64,000 bases of DNA from a virus. The notes under the pieces were generated by a model. It worked only from the letters and a program-made list of their open reading frames with translations. It was not told the origin of the DNA and did no database searches. Where the stretch lies: positions 62,001-126,000 of IMG/VR virus record IMGVR_UViG_3300049215_000771, one strand, 5' to 3'. Made by a program: the position numbers and the translations under genes. The stretch's first letter is position 1. Each line of letters opens with the position of its first letter. This document shows, piece by piece, positions 988 to 59,560 of this stretch.

Positions 988-1778
988 GCGCAAGAATCAG
1001 TGGTTCGAGGAACGCAAGGTCCAGCAGCCGGCGACTGTTTGTCTTTGAGGCAGCCAACACCCTTCTCGTCGAACTTCAGTTCGGCGAAGGCGGCACGGAC
1101 TCAAAGCTGTTCGTTGCTGACCTTCTACTCACCTACCAACGCTACGCCGCCATCAAAGGCTTCAAGACAGAACTCCTCTCCGAAGAAAATGGCAAAGCCA
1201 TGCTCAAGGTGATGGGGAAGAATGTCTGGACGGCCTTCAAGAATGAACCCGGCAAGCACGTTGTTCAGCGTGTGCCTCCGACCGAGCGTTCGGGGCGGTG
1301 GCAAACATCTGTGATTTCCGTCGCCGTCCTGCCGCTGCCCCCGGAAAACAAGCTGGTTCCACTCCAAGAAAAAGACTTGGAAATTACCACGCAAACCGGC
1401 AAGCAGAAGGCGGGCGGACAAAACGTCAACAAAGTCGCCAGCGCCGTCAGGATGAAGCATAAGCCTACGGGTCTGTCTGTATTCATCAACGGGCGGGACC
1501 AAGGCCAGAACAAGAAGGAAGCCCTGCATGTTCTGACGGCCAGGGTCAACCAGCTTCGTCTCGACAAGACCGCCTCCGATTACGACAATCTGAGGACGGG
1601 ACAGATGAAGGGAATCGGCGACAAACTCGGTGGTAGGGGCGACAAGATTCGTACCTACAACTTCATCAAGTCGAGGGTGGTGGATCACAGACTCGGCGTG
1701 AAGACCGGAAACATCAAGGAAGTGATGAAGGGAAACCTCACACTCCTGTTCGACAGTCAAGAAAAAGATGAAGAATAA
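980..1778 (+). CDS. Class I peptide chain release factor with probable +1 programmed frameshift
   Basis: Translation termination factor. Reading from ATG 980 gives 22 codons, then CTT TGA at 1043-1048. Skipping T1046 joins this to an open frame running 1047-1778 (join 980..1045,1047..1778; 265 aa). The second frame has no ATG, GTG or TTG before its first conserved residues, so it cannot start alone. It holds the domain 2 strand ELQFGEGGTDSKLF, the codon-recognition segment HVVQRVPPTERSG (PPT at about residues 99-101, an RF1-type PxT motif) and the catalytic GGQ (about 145-147, KAGGQNVNKVASAVR). The N-terminal domain 1 of normal RF1/RF2 is missing. CTT-TGA is the slip site of bacterial RF2 genes, but no strong upstream Shine-Dalgarno stimulator is seen. 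A PrfH-like rescue factor is an alternative role. Confidence 0.85.
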
Positions 1779-3258: not shown

Positions 3259-3735
3259 ATGCACGTTGGCGATTTTTTCCGGGGTGTGGCCCGGTTTATT
3301 GACGAGAAGTTTGTACACTACGCTGGCAGGCCGCTGGTACACTACAGGCTCCTGCCGGTCAGTGTCAAACATGATGCGGACGGGTTGTATTACCCTGAGT
3401 CCACCGAGAAGAAGTGGGAAAACAAACCTACCTTTCTGCGAGGTTTTTACGAGATTCCTGTCTCGACAGCGACCGGCCAGTTTGGTATTGATGCACCAGA
3501 CGAAATGCTTGTTGAGTTGGGATTTAACGACACTGTGAAGGCGCTCGGCAAAGTTCCTGGCATCGGCGATCTCTTCCTGGATTGCAACCATGACAAGTGG
3601 ATTGTCGTCCAAAGAAGCAGAAAAGATGACATGGTGCGAGGCCAAAACCGCCTGATTTTGACAGTTTGTCGGTTCCAGGAGTCTGTGACTACGGGAGGCA
3701 AGCAAGATGTCGAACATCATCAAGGAACTGTATGA
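3259..3735 (+). CDS. Protein of unknown function
   Basis: 158 aa from ATG 3259, which follows CTGGAGG at good spacing; a TTG at 3235 is a weaker alternative. The sequence is mixed alpha/beta with no motif I recognise (for example FIDEKFVHYAGRPLVHYR). Its end overlaps the nucleotidyltransferase start by 29 nt, so both belong to the pyrE operon. Confidence 0.65.
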   Translation: MHVGDFFRGVARFIDEKFVHYAGRPLVHYRLLPVSVKHDADGLYYPESTEKKWENKPTFLRGFYEIPVSTATGQFGIDAPDEMLVELGFNDTVKALGKVPGIGDLFLDCNHDKWIVVQRSRKDDMVRGQNRLILTVCRFQESVTTGGKQDVEHHQGTV

Positions 3736-4846
3736 CAAGGGACTGGCAAGCTGTGGCGGACATCACTGGATGCCCGACAACATGCACTACATCACGATGA
3801 TGGGTTCGGTCGCCTACGGCGTCAGCAACGACACATCCGACACCGACATTTACTCCTTCTGCATCCCGCCGAAGGACAACTTGTTCCCGCACCTTCGGGG
3901 CGAGATCGTCGGGTTCGGCGATGCCAAGCACGCCAACAACAGGTTCCGCAACCATCAGCAGCATCACGTCAAGGATGTTGGCGCTGAGAAGGAGTACGAT
4001 CTCAACGTCTACAACATCGTTGACTACTTCCAGTTGGTGATGGAAAACAACCCGAACATGATCGACAGTTTGTTCACTCCGCAGTTCTGTGTTCTGCACA
4101 GTACCCGGATCGGCCAGATGGTTCGTGAGGCTCGGAAAACTTTCCTTCACCGTGGCGCATGGCACGCCTTCAAGGGCTACAGCTATGCTCAACTGAAAAA
4201 GATGAGGCCGGGCGAGGAATTGGTCTGCCCGGAGTGTGAGCAGATCAGCAAGGGGTGGCATTCCAAGGACAACAAGTTCGAGGTTGCCTACGCCTTGATG
4301 CTCGACTTGTGGGCAGCCCTGGAGCGTGACCAGGGAACTTTGACGGACGAGGAACTGGACAAGTATTGCTTTTACTGTGCCAAGTCCAGGAAGGTTTCCA
4401 AGCTGGAGAAGCAGAAGGTCAACCGGCGTGTCGGGAAGCGAAAGGAATCTGTCGAGAAGTACGGATTCGACCCGAAATTCGCCTACCACGTTGTTCGGCT
4501 CCTGGGTGAAATCGAACAGATTCTCACCGAGGGTGACATCGACCTGCAACGGAACCGTGAGCAACTGAAGTCCATCCGGCGTGGCGAATGGACTCTCGAA
4601 CAAATCGAGAGTTACTTCGCCGACAAGGAACCCCAGCTTGAAACTCTCTACAACGAGAACAAGGCTGGGTTGCCGTGGGGTCCGAAGGACGGGGACTTGC
4701 AGAAGAACGTCAAGCAGCTTCTTTTCCATTGCCTGGAAGAACACTACGGTTCGCTTGACAAGTGTGTGGTCAATGTCGATGCCGCCGCAAACGCCCTTCG
4801 GGAGATCGAGGGAATCGTCGCTCGTTACAGAAAGGCGCTTGCATGA
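3707..4846 (+). CDS. Pol-beta-type nucleotidyltransferase (RlaP/YcgL-like)
   Basis: 379 aa. The nucleotidyltransferase signature is GSVAYGVSNDTSDTDIYSF (G-S, then D-x-D for metal binding), as in PF10127 proteins. A central CPEC plus a later CFYC may bind zinc. The start is supported by GGGAGG. Such proteins transfer nucleotides to RNA or proteins; members are frequent in jumbo phages and may take part in RNA repair next to RNA ligases. Exact substrate unknown. The stop overlaps the next ATG (ATGA at 4843). Confidence 0.85.
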   Translation: MSNIIKELYDKGLASCGGHHWMPDNMHYITMMGSVAYGVSNDTSDTDIYSFCIPPKDNLFPHLRGEIVGFGDAKHANNRFRNHQQHHVKDVGAEKEYDLNVYNIVDYFQLVMENNPNMIDSLFTPQFCVLHSTRIGQMVREARKTFLHRGAWHAFKGYSYAQLKKMRPGEELVCPECEQISKGWHSKDNKFEVAYALMLDLWAALERDQGTLTDEELDKYCFYCAKSRKVSKLEKQKVNRRVGKRKESVEKYGFDPKFAYHVVRLLGEIEQILTEGDIDLQRNREQLKSIRRGEWTLEQIESYFADKEPQLETLYNENKAGLPWGPKDGDLQKNVKQLLFHCLEEHYGSLDKCVVNVDAAANALREIEGIVARYRKALA

Positions 4847-18291: not shown

Positions 18292-18747
18292 GTGGGGGTC
18301 TACCTCGCTGACCGGGCGCTGGCGATGGTCGCCGAGGACTTCCACACGGGCATGGAGTTGCTGAAGATCGAGAAGGATCAACTCGCCGAGTACGTCATCG
18401 ACTTAGCGAAGCAACTCCGAGAGAAAGAACAACAGGAGAGCAAACCCAAACTCTCCATGCCGACGCCCAAGGTCTTGAAGAAGGTGACGGTTGTTGGTTT
18501 GTTGCCGGACCAGGCTCGCAACCTGGAAGAAAAACTGGCGGGCCTAGCCGAGTTGAACTTCATCGACAAGAACCGGCGCTCACCAACAGCCATTCCGCCA
18601 GTTCAAGACATTTTGGTGCTTGCAGCGGAATTCGTCAGCGTTCCGATGAAGATCGAAGCCAAGAAGCGAGCCGAGAACGGCACCCAGGTCATCTTGCACC
18701 GGGGCGGGGTTGGCCTGATGGCACAGAAACTCAAAGAAATCCTATGA
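18292..18747 (+). CDS. Protein of unknown function
   Basis: 151 aa from GTG 18292, two bases after the previous stop; ATG 18325 is an alternative start. Helical N-terminus, then a conserved-looking core KVTVVGLLPDQARNLEEKLAG and a C-terminal ILVLAAEFVSVPMKIEAKKR. The core may be a Rossmann-like half; not recognised. Confidence 0.6.
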   Translation: MGVYLADRALAMVAEDFHTGMELLKIEKDQLAEYVIDLAKQLREKEQQESKPKLSMPTPKVLKKVTVVGLLPDQARNLEEKLAGLAELNFIDKNRRSPTAIPPVQDILVLAAEFVSVPMKIEAKKRAENGTQVILHRGGVGLMAQKLKEIL

Positions 18748-18818
18748 TTTTCAAGCCGGGTGATAAAGTCATGTGCATCAGCACCGACGCCCCCGCTCAT
18801 TTTCTGGCGTACCATTGA
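18744..18818 (+). CDS. Possible micro-ORF upstream of the Sec-type tRNA
   Basis: 24 codons from an ATG overlapping the previous stop (ATGA), reading MIFKPGDKVMCIST at its start, ending TGA 18 nt before the tRNA. Might be a truncated gene. Low support. Confidence 0.3.
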   Translation: MIFKPGDKVMCISTDAPAHFLAYH

Positions 18819-18836
18819 CGAAGGATAGATACACCT

Positions 18837-18930
18837 GGAAGCGAATGCCGTCTGGTGTAGGCCGCAGTCTTCAAAACTGTTGTAGGGTGTGAACAACACT
18901 CTAGGAGGGTTCGATTCCCTTTCGCTTCCG
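18837..18930 (+). tRNA. selC-like: tRNA with UCA anticodon, selenocysteine type
   Basis: 94 nt. The acceptor stem has 8 bp (GGAAGCGA 18837-18844 with TCGCTTCC 18922-18929), the T stem 5 bp (18905-18909 with 18917-18921, one G-U) around TTCGATT, giving the 8+5 stack of bacterial tRNA-Sec. Anticodon loop CTTCAAA (18869-18875) carries TCA at 18871-18873, on a 4-bp stem plus a G-U. The long variable arm has 7 bp (18884-18890 with 18896-18902) and a 5-nt loop. Length and shape match E. coli selC (95 nt); an opal-suppressor serine tRNA is the alternative. No selA, selB or SECIS is visible here. Confidence 0.85.
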
Positions 18931-19407
18931 TTCAACATACTCGGCGGCTTTTCTTAACAAGTCTGGATTGTCTTCAAATAAACCTAGAGCAGTGTTGCAA
19001 GTCCGACACAATAAACCACGAACATGCCCCTCAGCATGGCAGTGGTCAACAGCAAGTCGTTTGCCATCAGGATCGGGTTTTCCGCACAGGGCACACACGC
19101 CATTCTGTGATTCAAGTAACAAGTTGTAGTCATCAACTGATAAGCCAAATTCACGCCGAAGTTTGTTTTTCCAAACTACTTCGGCGTGATGTTTTTTGTC
19201 ACAGGTGGCATACCGTTTCTTGCAGTATGTTTTGTGCCATTCTTTGTTATTTTCGTAGCGGTCGCCGTATTTGTGACTGTTGTTTTTCCAGTAGTTTTGC
19301 TTGTACTTACGCTGGCAATCTCGACATTTGGTGTGCCGACGTTTTCCGCCATCACGGGGAGCGAATTCTTCAATCGGTTTGTCTATTTCGCAGGTGTTAC
19401 AAATCAT
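18901..19407 (-). CDS. Endonuclease VII-type HNH nuclease
   Basis: 168 aa. N-terminal zinc-binding CNTC ... CRDC, a basic linker, then the endonuclease VII core: CALCGKPDPDGKRLAVDHCH and VRGLLCRTCNTALGLFEDNP. The T4 family member resolves branched DNA; free-standing relatives act like homing enzymes. Its TAG stop and last 10 codons lie antisense to the 3' third of the Sec-type tRNA. ATG overlaps the stop of the VOC gene. Confidence 0.9.
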   Translation of the reverse strand: MICNTCEIDKPIEEFAPRDGGKRRHTKCRDCQRKYKQNYWKNNSHKYGDRYENNKEWHKTYCKKRYATCDKKHHAEVVWKNKLRREFGLSVDDYNLLLESQNGVCALCGKPDPDGKRLAVDHCHAEGHVRGLLCRTCNTALGLFEDNPDLLRKAAEYVERKRKGIEPS

Positions 19408-19973
19408 AGTTTGGCGGTACTCTCCATAAGGGCTTTTACGTTCTCACGACAAAACCCGAATTCGTCCCTTTCAATGAACTCATAGATCACTCCTGTCAGC
19501 AAAGAAGGTTTCGTGAACACCTGGGTCAATCCAGGACACTTCATTGGTTCGTCGGACGTAAATTCGGCGTACCCCTTCTGCTTCCAATCTTCCATTGTTT
19601 GTTGAACGCTATCTACCTGATAGGCGATATGGTGGATTCCTCCAACGCCGCCACGGGCAGCAACCCAATCTCCTACAATGGAACCAGGGGAGCCATCCGA
19701 AACAAAAATTTCAGGTGCAAGATGGTAATTTTGCATCACTTCACGCACAAGGCCGGCAGGTTCTTCGGGCATGTAGTTTACTCCACCGTAAACCCAATGA
19801 ACCTGAGTGCCAGCTTTCTTCTCAGGCGGCTCCAGGGCAATGCACTTGGCGGTTTGTCCTTCGCCAAAGTCAATGTCGAATTCCTGCTGAACGTGGTAGC
19901 CCAGGGCGTCGATGAAAAACTTCGCCGACTTCCAACGGTCGGCTACTCGATAGGCAATATGATCTAGTCGCAT
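19404..19973 (-). CDS. VOC/glyoxalase-superfamily protein, HPPD-like
   Basis: 189 aa from ATG 19973 with AAGGAG upstream. Begins MRLDHIAYRVADRWKSAKFF and repeats the pattern at GGIHHIAYQVDSVQQTMEDW, the two beta-alpha-beta-beta-beta modules of vicinal-oxygen-chelate enzymes; metal His residues sit in DHIAY and HHIAY with Glu in IYEFIER. Likely a dioxygenase or lyase with unknown substrate. Confidence 0.8.
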   Translation of the reverse strand: MRLDHIAYRVADRWKSAKFFIDALGYHVQQEFDIDFGEGQTAKCIALEPPEKKAGTQVHWVYGGVNYMPEEPAGLVREVMQNYHLAPEIFVSDGSPGSIVGDWVAARGGVGGIHHIAYQVDSVQQTMEDWKQKGYAEFTSDEPMKCPGLTQVFTKPSLLTGVIYEFIERDEFGFCRENVKALMESTAKL

Positions 19974-20010
19974 GATTTCTCCTTGTAGCAACACTCAACT
20001 AAGGTAGTTT

Positions 20011-27408: not shown

Positions 27409-27492
27409 GGGACCGTAGCTCAATGGTAGAGCAGGGGATTTGAATTGTGTCTCATAATCCCTTGGTTGCTGGTTCGAGTCCAGCCGGTCCCA
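27409..27492 (+). tRNA. tRNA-Met(CAU)-like gene with 12 extra bases in the anticodon arm
   Basis: 84 nt. Acceptor GGGACCG (27409-27415) pairs with CGGTCCC (27485-27491), A73; D arm GCTC...GAGC; T arm GCTGG TTCGAGT CCAGC. The anticodon stem GGGGA (27434-27438) pairs with TCCCT (27458-27462), and a normal Met loop CTCATAA (27451-27457) is present, but 12 bases (27439-27450) lie between the 5' stem and this loop. Without them the gene would be a standard elongator-type tRNA-Met. The extra bases may be an insertion, a very small intron, or evidence of a decayed gene. Confidence 0.7.
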
Positions 27493-27503
27493 CAGGAGAT
27501 ACC

Positions 27504-40259: not shown

Positions 40260-41489
40260 ATGTTCAATCTCTCCGAGGCGCTGGAGGCTCTGAAGGGCCA
40301 CGACGAGTTTGCAATCAAGGCTTATGACGGCCTGGTTACGCTTGACTACATTTTATGCTTCCCAGGCTCGTTCGATGCCGCAGAAGCCGAAATCGTGGCT
40401 CGTGGAGAGGCACAGGCTCACCGGGATGCAGAAATTCGCCGGAACTGTCGAGGGGTGACTTTCGACGAAAAGACTGGCGAGATCGTGTCTTTGCCGCTGC
40501 ACAAGTTTTTCAACATCGGCCAGACCGAGCAAACGCAGTTCCGCCACTTAACGTCCTGCAAGGCACGGATTTACGAGAAGATGGATGGTTCGATGATCCA
40601 CTTCTTCGTCCACCCGCACCGTCAGGAGTTGCTGGCGTCCACCTGCCGCTCGACGCAAACGCCCCAGGCGCAGGAGTCGCTGGGGCTGGCGAAGAAGAAC
40701 CAGCTTGTCTACGGCAAGATTCTCGCTATCATCGGTGAGGGTTGGACTCCGGTTTTCGAGTACGTCGCTGCACACAACCAGATCGTGGTGCAATATCCAC
40801 GTCCCCGGTTGGTGTATCTGATCTCTCGTCACCGGAAGACGGGCGAGTATAAGTTCCACGAAGGGTTCCCGGATACGGCAACGTATTTTGAGTTTCCCTT
40901 CCAGGACATCAACAACTACTTGGACCGCAAGGAATTCGAGGGCTACGTTTGCCACCTGGAATTCACGGAAGATGTTTCGTGCATCAAGGCGAAGAAGGGT
41001 GACAAGACGATTGTGAAGGCCAAGACGCCCTGGTACTTGGAGCGTCACCGGGCAGTGGATGCCCTGATGAGGCCGACCTACAAGTTGTACCAGGTCGTGT
41101 TCGATGGTGTCATGGACGACCTGTTGCCAACGGCTCCTGATCGGTTCAAGCCGAAGCTGGTTGGAATCTACGAAGAGGCGCAGCGTGATCTACTGAACGA
41201 GCAGCGCCGTGTTGAGAAGTTGTTCGATCTTTCGTTGGCGGCAGTGGAATCCGTTTGGAGCAGGACGTTCTCTCACGGAAAGCTGCCGGAACGCAAGATG
41301 GATCGGGTTCTCCGCAAGGCGTTCGTTGAGTACATCCAGCAGCACTACAAGTCGGATTTCTCTCTGCTGATGGCCCTGTATCTCGGCAATGACCCGTCTC
41401 CCACCATCAAGGACCGATTGATGGAAGGGTACAAGCTAAAGTACCCAAATCGGCTTTTTGCTGATTTGGAAGAAGAAGCTGTCGCATGA
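40260..41489 (+). CDS. RNA ligase, T4 Rnl1-like
   Basis: 409 aa from ATG 40260. NCRGVTFDEKTGEIVSLPL and HKFFNIGQTEQ precede motif I ARIYEKMDGSMIHFF (Lys in K-M-D-G-S), followed by TPVFEYVAAHNQIV (motif III), EGYVCHL (motif IV) and TIVKAKTPWYLERH (motif V). The helical C-terminal domain matches the Rnl1 length. T4 Rnl1 repairs tRNA cut by host anticodon nuclease. Confidence 0.9.
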   Translation: MFNLSEALEALKGHDEFAIKAYDGLVTLDYILCFPGSFDAAEAEIVARGEAQAHRDAEIRRNCRGVTFDEKTGEIVSLPLHKFFNIGQTEQTQFRHLTSCKARIYEKMDGSMIHFFVHPHRQELLASTCRSTQTPQAQESLGLAKKNQLVYGKILAIIGEGWTPVFEYVAAHNQIVVQYPRPRLVYLISRHRKTGEYKFHEGFPDTATYFEFPFQDINNYLDRKEFEGYVCHLEFTEDVSCIKAKKGDKTIVKAKTPWYLERHRAVDALMRPTYKLYQVVFDGVMDDLLPTAPDRFKPKLVGIYEEAQRDLLNEQRRVEKLFDLSLAAVESVWSRTFSHGKLPERKMDRVLRKAFVEYIQQHYKSDFSLLMALYLGNDPSPTIKDRLMEGYKLKYPNRLFADLEEEAVA

Positions 41490-46529: not shown

Positions 46530-47021
46530 ATGGCAAGGTATGGTAATATCTTTTTCCTTCCTGGCATTGTTAGGGTATCGTTTGAAGACCCAGCACCAGG
46601 CTTCTTAGAGGACAAGTTGACGAATGGTGAGGGCGTAACCATCACCACTGTCAACCAGCCCTGGGAAGATGGTGGTCAAGTGTTGGTTGTTTCTATGGCC
46701 CCTGGAGCGGGGTCTGGAAATGTTCTTACTTTGAGAACGCCTGGGGCGCAGGTTACTCCTGACGTTTCCACTGTTTTCATTGATGCGTCACAAGGGCCGG
46801 TCGAAGTGATCTTCCCTGAAGCTGCCGCATTCCTTGGTTCGTTTACCCTGGTTTGTTTGGATAACAGCAATCCCATCACGTTGCAATCTTCGTCGGGTTC
46901 GACGATTTTTGCCCCGGAGAACTTTGAGTTCCACACTGCTGGGGATGCTTTCATTTTCCAAAGCGACAGGGTTGGTGTCTGGTATGCAATATCCAGGTAC
47001 ACCGCAAACTGGTACGCATAA
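46530..47021 (+). CDS. Beta-rich protein, possible virion or fibre component
   Basis: 163 aa, AGGAGG-like GGAGG upstream. Mostly Gly/Thr/Val/Phe strands (VEVIFPEAAAFLGSFTLVC, LQSSSGSTIFAPENFEF) with few charges, resembling decoration or tail-fibre domains. No family match. Confidence 0.6.
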   Translation: MARYGNIFFLPGIVRVSFEDPAPGFLEDKLTNGEGVTITTVNQPWEDGGQVLVVSMAPGAGSGNVLTLRTPGAQVTPDVSTVFIDASQGPVEVIFPEAAAFLGSFTLVCLDNSNPITLQSSSGSTIFAPENFEFHTAGDAFIFQSDRVGVWYAISRYTANWYA

Positions 47022-47663
47022 ATGAAGGAATATCCGAAGATTCTTGGTCCCTACGATGCAGCCCACGGACAACCGTGCATCGCATTCTACAAACTGGACG
47101 GCTCGAATCTTCGGTTTGAATGGAACCCGAAGTCGGGCTGGTACAAATTTGGAACCCGCCGACAATTGTTCCATCCCACTGATCCGGTCTATGGGTCGGC
47201 TGTGGAAATCTTTCTCCGAAAGTACGGCGATGGCTTAATCAAAGTCATACGAGAAAACTCCGCATATCGGAAGGTTGATGGCTTGATCGCTTATGCCGAG
47301 TTCTTCGGCCCGCATAGTTTCGCCGGCAAGCACGATGCCGAGTTTTTGGGTGTTGAATCCAATGACCCCAAAGATGTGGTGTTGTTCGACATCAATATCA
47401 ACAAGAAGGGTTTTGTCTCTCCAGAAAAATTTGTTGAGCATTTTGGGCATTTGCATATTCCCGAAGTGGTCTACCGTGGCCCATTTGACCGGGATTTCAC
47501 CGAGTCAATTCGCAACAATACCCTGGGCGTTCCACTCGTCGAGGGCGTCGTCGCTAAGGGCGGCGAAGGGCATAAACTCTGGATGAGGAAGGTCAAAACC
47601 CTCGCATATCTCAAAGAACTCAAAGAACGCCTGGGAACTGGCTGGGAGCAGTATTGGGAATGA
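47022..47663 (+). CDS. RNA ligase-like nucleotidyltransferase
   Basis: 213 aa; ATG directly follows the previous stop. Motif I IAFYKLDGSNLRFEW (K-L-D-G-S-N), KFGTRRQLF, YAEFFGPHSFAGKH (motif III), VVEGVVAKG-type motif IV (LVEGVVAKGGEG) and LWMRKVKT (motif V). Fourth ligase-fold protein of the window. Confidence 0.85.
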   Translation: MKEYPKILGPYDAAHGQPCIAFYKLDGSNLRFEWNPKSGWYKFGTRRQLFHPTDPVYGSAVEIFLRKYGDGLIKVIRENSAYRKVDGLIAYAEFFGPHSFAGKHDAEFLGVESNDPKDVVLFDININKKGFVSPEKFVEHFGHLHIPEVVYRGPFDRDFTESIRNNTLGVPLVEGVVAKGGEGHKLWMRKVKTLAYLKELKERLGTGWEQYWE

Positions 47664-47664
47664 C

Positions 47665-47693
47665 TTTACAACCAGCCTCCGGGGTGGTACAAT
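47665..47693 (+). promoter_or_regulatory. Promoter, TTTACA class
   Basis: -35 TTTACA (then ACCAG), 17-bp spacer, -10 TACAAT (47688-47693), 30 bp before ATG 47724. Confidence 0.75.
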
Positions 47694-47723
47694 CGGCCCT
47701 AGAATGGCGTTTTCGAGGTTCCC

Positions 47724-59392: not shown

Positions 59393-59463
59393 GCCCCGTT
59401 GGTACATTGGCTGTGCCGTGGCCTCTAAAGCCACAGAAGTCGGTTCGATTCCGGCACGGGGTA
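59393..59463 (+). tRNA. tRNA with CUA (amber) anticodon, first of a pair
   Basis: 71 nt. Acceptor GCCCCGT/ACGGGGT (G-U at the first pair), D stem GTAC/GTGC, anticodon arm GTGGC-CTCTAAA-GCCAC with CTA at 59425-59427, T arm GTCGG-TTCGATT-CCGGC. The 7-nt loop is identical to that of the E. coli supF amber suppressor. It reads UAG; charging amino acid unknown. Confidence 0.85.
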
Positions 59464-59466
59464 CAA

Positions 59467-59539
59467 GCCCTGGTAGCTCAGTGGTCAGAGCGGTTGACTC
59501 TAAATCAACGTGTCGTGGGTTCGATCCCCACCCAGGGCG
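59467..59539 (+). tRNA. tRNA with CUA (amber) anticodon, second of a pair
   Basis: 73 nt, three bases after the first tRNA. Acceptor GCCCTGG/CCAGGGC, D stem GCTC/GAGC, anticodon arm GTTGA-CTCTAAA-TCAAC with CTA at 59500-59502, T arm GTGGG-TTCGATC-CCCAC, discriminator G. The body differs clearly from the first, so the pair is not a simple recent duplication. Confidence 0.88.
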
Positions 59540-59560
59540 CTGCATATCATAGGGAGGTTC

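Follow-up and report, generated by a model that had tools for sequence, protein, structure and literature searches.

The window is the whole stretch of viral DNA that we analyzed (64,000 nucleotides) and corresponds to bases 62001–126000 of the 532,729-base virus record IMGVR_UViG_3300049215_000771, designated G000 (the G and L numbers used below are labels of the present analysis for virus records and for sequence stretches or contigs, respectively). Its plus strand carries a Sec-type tRNA gene at positions 18837–18930, which ARAGORN reported as tRNA-SeC (tca) with exactly these boundaries. The Rfam model RF01852 matched positions 18837–18929 with 76.5 bits against a gathering score of 47 (E 6e-14 in the 64-kb window), and the score did not change when the tRNA stretch was scanned by itself. 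The acceptor 5′ strand (18837–18844, 8 nt, plus strand) forms eight of eight standard pairs with 18922–18929. The anticodon stem (five pairs), the long variable arm (18883–18903, plus strand; 8 bp and a 5-nt loop) and the T arm (18905–18921, plus strand; 5 bp) also contain standard pairs only. The UCA anticodon lies at 18871–18873, the discriminator base (18930) is G and no CCA is encoded. Bacterial tRNA-Secs have a 13-bp acceptor/T stack, split 8+5. The phage gene thus combines a score above the RF01852 gathering cut-off with the UCA anticodon, the 8+5 stack and the long variable arm of the family. Its single-strand folding z-score was −3.75, with one of 200 shuffles equaling the real fold, and the unconstrained minimum-energy fold (−37.1 kcal/mol) differs from the full cloverleaf (−36.0 kcal/mol). 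An initial annotation of this DNA, made from its letters and open reading frames, had proposed a Sec-type tRNA(UCA) with an 8+5 stack in a phage setting, which both programs and the pair count confirm; the variable arm of 7 bp that it described is 8 bp long.

The D arm (18847–18862, plus strand) is the one imperfect element. Bacterial tRNA-Secs have an extended D stem of 6 bp with a 4-nt loop. The phage gene forms four of the six pairs in the canonical register, and its two adjacent mismatches (G-A and U-U) are a feature absent from the initial annotation. Counted free of register, the stem has five pairs, four of them consecutive. The same register-free count in 119 distinct comparators, a set that omits the phage copy and L016, L023, L034 and L038, gave six pairs in 67, five in 39, four in 12 and none in one. 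In the canonical register, the phage stem is weaker than that of the majority of comparators. SelA reads the D arm of tRNA-Sec and, therefore, conversion to selenocysteine on a tRNA with such a weak stem may be poor. A tRNA-Ser gene or a pseudogene was ruled out, as RF01852 is the match retained for its clan and only the D stem is imperfect. The locus is a complete Sec-type tRNA gene with a blemish in its D stem.

The 3′ end of the tRNA gene is overlapped by the final 30 nt, stop codon included, of an endonuclease VII-like HNH gene (168 amino acids; 18901–19407, minus strand; PF02945, 5.4e-25). The start of the endonuclease gene in turn overlaps by 4 nt the stop of a glyoxalase-fold gene (19404–19994, minus strand; identified by PF13669/PF00903 and synteny), which is the right neighbor of the insertion and is present in nine of 80 ClpX loci as well as in LR756511.1. 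The left neighbor is a hypothetical gene (18292–18747, plus strand) with a homolog in G001. Judged by ClpX (68% identity), G001 and G002 are the nearest relatives. In G001, the left-gene homolog and the glyoxalase gene face each other across 40 nt, and the tRNA and endonuclease genes are jointly missing from this otherwise conserved site; in G002, no endonuclease match was found at the corresponding spot. In G041 (L182), the glyoxalase gene has an endonuclease VII gene as its neighbor (PF02945, 48% identity across 65 amino acids), and ARAGORN lists no tRNA at this locus. A 168-aa ORF beside the glyoxalase gene of LR756511.1 has the length of the endonuclease, yet is unrelated to it and has no Pfam match.

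Of 45 related records (LR756511.1 and 44 from IMG/VR), many of which are partial, none yielded a tRNA-Sec, which argues against a long-standing need for it. LR756511.1 had no RF01852 match above the cut-off; among the 44 IMG/VR relatives only G032 had one (49.7 bits), at a gene that ARAGORN calls tRNA-Leu(UAA). For G001, G013, G020 and G025, the RF01852 scan scored 74 of the 77–121 candidates in each. The simplest reading of these comparisons is that the tRNA-Sec and endonuclease VII genes were gained recently as a cassette; a loss of both from the relatives is also possible.

The gene selC is a known site of prophage integration, and the phage copy could then be the remnant of an attachment site. 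The occurrence of selC 3′ halves in viral contigs and the tRNA-Sec annotated in phage Pf8 are consistent with such an origin. However, both ends of the gene are present, its sequence is distant from every selC that we compared, and nine neighboring proteins scanned against Pfam included no integrase (five matched a family and four had no match). We regard this origin as highly improbable.

Among the matches listed in genome contigs (117 tRNA-Secs, recovered with a pattern scan that favored sequences with the same anticodon and T arms), the nearest comparator comes from an Izimaplasma MAG and is identical at 78 of 94 bases; the next shares 74. The phage gene resembles bacterial tRNA-Sec (selC; RF01852) in its 8+5 stack, UCA anticodon, long variable arm and G discriminator, and differs from it in sequence (at most 78/94 identical among the 117 comparators listed), in its D stem (4/6), in the lack of an encoded CCA and in belonging to a phage without detected SelA, SelB or SelD. 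The closest selC gave no usable answer as a predictor of the host. Relative to the nearest comparator, five of the six pairs that differ in the acceptor, T and anticodon stems have changed on both sides.

These changes bear on whether the tRNA-Sec is a mere passenger, carried along by an endonuclease VII-type element, with a selected function in this phage that is slight or absent. Its place within an insertion that also holds the endonuclease gene, whose 3′ end it overlaps, the empty site in G001, the endonuclease gene without a tRNA in G041, the failure to find it in the related records and the weak D stem in the canonical register would all suit a passenger. However, a pure passenger should decay, and the stems other than the D stem are intact at a divergence of at least 17% from every comparator listed, with most of the differing pairs changed on both sides. 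The presence of similar genes in other viral contigs also suggests some benefit. On balance, we consider a passenger unlikely, while giving it real weight.

To place the gene among other viral sequences, we combined searches of IMG/VR and of a phage collection. A first IMG/VR pattern scan returned 91 stretches, of which 33 overlap an ARAGORN tRNA-SeC, 11 overlap other tRNAs and 47 overlap none; part of these 47 are 3′ halves of selC. A second scan returned 29 stretches, 24 of which were checked with Rfam (L042, L394, L403, L410 and L412 were left out). The RF01852 cut-off was reached in 11 of 15 and one of nine of the stretches scanned, the last with 47.6 bits (L392). Four contigs (L397, L399, L402 and L413) are alike, and the tRNA-Sec sits beside a tRNA-Ala in L397, L399 and L402. 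L399 encodes baseplate wedge proteins. Between its tRNA-Sec and that of L397, and likewise that of L413, two pairs have changed on both sides, while a single anticodon-stem position is unpaired in L397 and in L402; on balance, this suggests a maintained structure. In L390, the tRNA-Sec lies inside an array of 16 tRNAs. Sec-type tRNAs therefore occur in at least two further groups of viral contigs, one of them with baseplate genes. Some of the remaining RF01852-positive viral contigs may be bacterial or attachment sites.

The G000 gene and those of the L397/L399/L402/L413 group and L390 all score above the RF01852 cut-off. In L390, L397, L399 and L402, the tRNA-Sec lies beside other tRNAs. The four-contig group differs from G000 in GC content (31–34%; L390 has 38%) and in its baseplate proteins (L399), and the acceptor stem has seven of eight pairs in L390, L397, L399 and L413 versus eight of eight in G000. 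Viral contigs also contained class II UCA tRNAs (L392, L393, L400, L404, L407 and L408) with a fit to RF00005 or, in the case of L392, to RF01852 just at its cut-off, and four further class II UCA stretches below both the RF00005 and RF01852 cut-offs (L396, L398, L409 and L414).

Eight of the 50,697 records in the phage collection matched a query with E. coli selC. The one tested of these, Campylobacter phage A18a (MG065686.1, 65829–71923), contains a perfect E. coli selC; its flanks are 100% E. coli K-12 chromosome, and we excluded it from the count as contamination. A second bacterial query had no match in the collection, and blastn with positions 18700–19000 of the window gave one weak match (MT838886.1, 76.5% over 68 bases).

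The initial annotation had also stated that UGA is the commonest stop codon of the neighboring genes. Our own simple codon-model caller bears this out: of the genes called with a stop, UGA terminates 46 of 86 in the window and 356 of 692 across G000 (UAA 246, UAG 90). With self-trained callers, the UGA share was 51% of 700 in G000, 34% of 388 in G001, 40% of 78 in G010 and 39% of 372 in G020, records that differ in GC content (0.528, 0.478, 0.365 and 0.504, respectively) and of which G010 had few genes called. A second stop followed UGA within five codons in 74 of 356 cases in G000; the counts were 36 of 131 for G001, nine of 31 for G010 and 35 of 144 for G020. In G000, UAA was followed by one in 38 of 253 cases and UAG in 20 of 91. 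Sequence was coding-like on both sides of the stop at 11 of 907 UGA, seven of 485 UAG and 13 of 452 UAA sites in G000, and three, three and one of these, respectively, had no start in the next 15 codons. We found no excess of readthrough at the UGA sites of G000 and no avoidance of UGA as a stop. Thus, nothing in stop usage, second stops or flanking coding signal suggests general readthrough of UGA.

These counts speak to a tRNA that would act as a general UGA suppressor, inserting serine instead of selenocysteine. The UCA anticodon, the weak D stem and the second stops, somewhat commoner after UGA than after UAA in G000, are compatible with suppression, as are the three CUA tRNAs, EF-Tu and SerRS core of the phage and a UCA tRNA in its relative G020. 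The latter (L257:11389–11459) is a class I tRNA of 71 nt that ARAGORN labels SeC. On the other hand, UGA ends a larger share of genes in G000 than in the three relatives, second stops after UGA are not raised relative to them and are matched by those after UAG, and an 8-bp acceptor with a good fit to RF01852 is typical of a SelB substrate. A serine-inserting suppressor is, in our judgment, quite improbable. The argument of the initial annotation that such a suppressor would be harmful receives indirect support from the high UGA share (51% versus 34, 40 and 39%) and the lack of a readthrough excess. The G020 tRNA shares its anticodon with the G000 tRNA-Sec, but its variable arm is short, and none of the 74 candidates scored in G020 (of 121) matched RF01852 at E 1e-9; it warns against calling tRNA-Secs from the anticodon alone.

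The tRNA-Sec is one of 56 tRNAs that ARAGORN called in G000, which was scanned in pieces. The set covers most amino acids and includes three tRNAs with a CUA anticodon; tRNAs for Lys, His and Cys were not called, and two tRNAs have an unclear anticodon. Two of the amber-decoding (CUA) tRNAs, identified with ARAGORN and Rfam, lie in the window on the plus strand (59393–59464, 72 nt, and 59467–59540, 74 nt) and the third, of 91 nt, was called by ARAGORN on the minus strand of G000 (491736–491826). They are present despite the standard code of G000, and G001 and G020 have two and one, respectively, in the portions examined. A tRNA-Phe(GAA) of 85 nt in the window (27409–27493) has an anticodon loop that looks about ten bases too large, intron-like or degenerate.

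Protein genes with roles in translation or RNA repair were also identified. G000 encodes an EF-Tu (TIGR00485, 590 bits versus a cut-off of 522), and the window contains an RF1-like release factor fragment (192 amino acids; 1200–1778, plus strand; PF00472 and PRK00591). The fragment matches positions 159–339 of the PRK00591 model with 173 bits (cut-off 400), so that the N-terminal region of the model has no counterpart in it, and has homologs in G001 (70%) and G020 (59%). Two genes of RNA-repair type are on the plus strand of the window: a nucleotidyltransferase of the RlaP-like RNA-repair family (3707–4846; PF10127, 7.2e-13; phrog_388) and a T4 Rnl1-like RNA ligase (40260–41489; phrog_562, 2.6e-49; TIGR02308, 100.9 bits, below the cut-off of 242). 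A search of G000 for RtcB found none. Furthermore, G000 has a SerRS core (46690–47694; L190:6690–7694, plus strand) that matches model positions 151–397 with 252.6 bits, below the cut-off of 301.65; it has no N-terminal tRNA-binding arm and carries a C-terminal extension. No match to this core was found in the portions examined of G001, G010 and G020 or in the ClpX flanks. The viral contig L415 does encode a homolog (250 amino acids, 71% identical), next to an ORF that by eye resembles a terminase. Full-length SerRS genes (about 433–436 amino acids) occur in two Brevundimonas jumbo phages.

The dedicated Sec pathway was not detected in G000. SelA (TIGR00474) and SelD (TIGR00476) had no match at E 1, and the sole match to the SelB model (TIGR00475, 148.7 bits, cut-off 242) is the EF-Tu; the record may be incomplete and these absences are thus no proof. 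The phage could in principle run UGA decoding itself, with a tRNA of relaxed D arm working through the phage EF-Tu and the armless SerRS core to insert serine or selenocysteine at a few chosen UGAs (e.g., codon 14 of the ORF at 177358–177813), and with the RF1-like fragment and three CUA tRNAs serving other stops. We see only a very slim chance of such a system.

The initial annotation had raised the prospect of phage selenoproteins elsewhere; the tRNA-Sec would decode such a protein with host SelB. Our homology screen for readthrough used queries with at least 20 open codons before the stop and 15 after it; selenocysteine close to the start of a protein would escape it. Spanning matches were obtained for 135 of 993 stop-codon queries (62 UGA, 51 UAG, 22 UAA) and, among those listed, mostly resembled antisense shadows of conserved genes. 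For example, a UGA at 167542 (minus strand) has a cysteine opposite it, yet no coding signal follows, and a UGA conserved in L397, L399, L402 and L413 is antisense to a small membrane-protein-like gene. When only the ends of called genes were considered, 22 of 311 queries had spanning matches. Six of them end in UGA, and the relatives have a gap, stops, Glu or Lys opposite these codons, never Cys.

One weak candidate emerged, an ORF at 177358–177813 of G000 (L194:13358–13813) with an in-frame UGA at codon 14 and coding-like sequence on either side. Its start overlaps the preceding gene by 4 nt, a purine-rich stretch precedes the ATG and 21 codons without a start follow the UGA. Our searches of the phage collection and IMG/VR found no homolog, and it has no Pfam domain. 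Folding also gave no SECIS-like excess: the 49 nt from the UGA had a z-score of 0.13, and longer cuts had −1.52 and −0.17. The ORF could represent a short leader ORF, reflect a sequencing error or contain a genuine recoding site. The features of its start and flanks, and the ease with which selenoproteins are missed by a screen that requires 20 open codons before the UGA, leave some room for a phage selenoprotein. Against it stand the lack of a homolog, domain or SECIS-like fold in this lone notable UGA-interrupted ORF, the UGA sites with coding-like flanks, which are not enriched relative to UAG or UAA, and the absence of cysteine at all six UGA gene ends. A selenoprotein of the phage's own is therefore doubtful, and the earlier suggestion is further weakened by the searches for SelA, SelB and SelD. 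No convincing phage selenoprotein emerged from these comparisons. Separately, a UAG that ends a called gene at 132145 of G000 (L192:8145, about 6 kb past the window end) faces a Glu codon in G001. The alignment with G001 continues beyond it, which could reflect UAG readthrough or a gene fusion.

Sec tRNAs have been annotated in phages before. The passages of PMC6145125 drawn on here describe a tRNA-SeC in Basilisk-like Bacillus phages, which the authors considered the first in phages to their knowledge and of unknown significance. Compared by that description, these phages are smaller (about 81–83 kb) and have two to three tRNAs versus the 56 of G000. Huge phages from wastewater, including 1-SewaA, have five to 47 tRNA genes, with Sec tRNA genes in three of seven genomes, and selenoproteins were suggested for the carriers in the part of PMC10747093 used here; these tRNAs are known to us from their description and could include anticodon-only calls like that of G020. 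Going by these annotations in open PubMed Central papers, a phage tRNA-Sec is a known kind of gene. PMC7162821 describes huge phages that carry as many as 67 tRNAs together with the elongation factors G, Tu and Ts; a look for the word selenocysteine in its main text found no instance. Evasion of tRNA-targeting defenses by phage tRNAs is reported in PMC10264068.

The other genes known to be needed for selenocysteine were not found in this giant phage, which most likely relies on its host for them. The explanation that we favor, tentatively, is a host-dependent Sec tRNA that the phage gained as a cassette and retains as part of a large kit for translation. The roles of SerRS, SelA, SelD and SelB in the synthesis and decoding of selenocysteine are well established. 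In a host that uses selenocysteine, the host SerRS would charge the phage tRNA-Sec with serine, SelA and SelD would turn the seryl-tRNA into its selenocysteine form and SelB would bring it to UGA codons marked by a SECIS. The phage would have acquired the tRNA in a small cassette together with the endonuclease VII gene and retained it as one item of a kit of 56 tRNAs, EF-Tu and RNA-repair-type genes. Such a kit could sustain translation, including that of host selenoproteins, when host tRNAs are damaged or outnumbered, and this may be the benefit to the phage; the initial annotation had likewise named a contribution to the making of host selenoproteins as one of its two readings.

Several observations agree with host dependence. 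The stems other than the D stem are intact despite the distance from all comparators listed, and Sec-type tRNAs with paired changes are also present in another phage group. The reported evasion of tRNA-targeting defenses by phage tRNAs fits as well. In addition, G000 uses the standard code, with UGA as its main stop and no excess of readthrough. On the other side, a Sec tRNA would be of little use to a phage without selenoproteins and may be a passenger.

A phage tRNA-Sec without a detected pathway makes the remark in the open literature about the significance of such genes testable. It raises the questions of whether phages sustain the synthesis of host selenoproteins, make selenoproteins of their own or harbor endonucleases that merely carry a tRNA along. 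The occurrence of Sec-type tRNAs in further viral contigs permits comparative tests of these possibilities.
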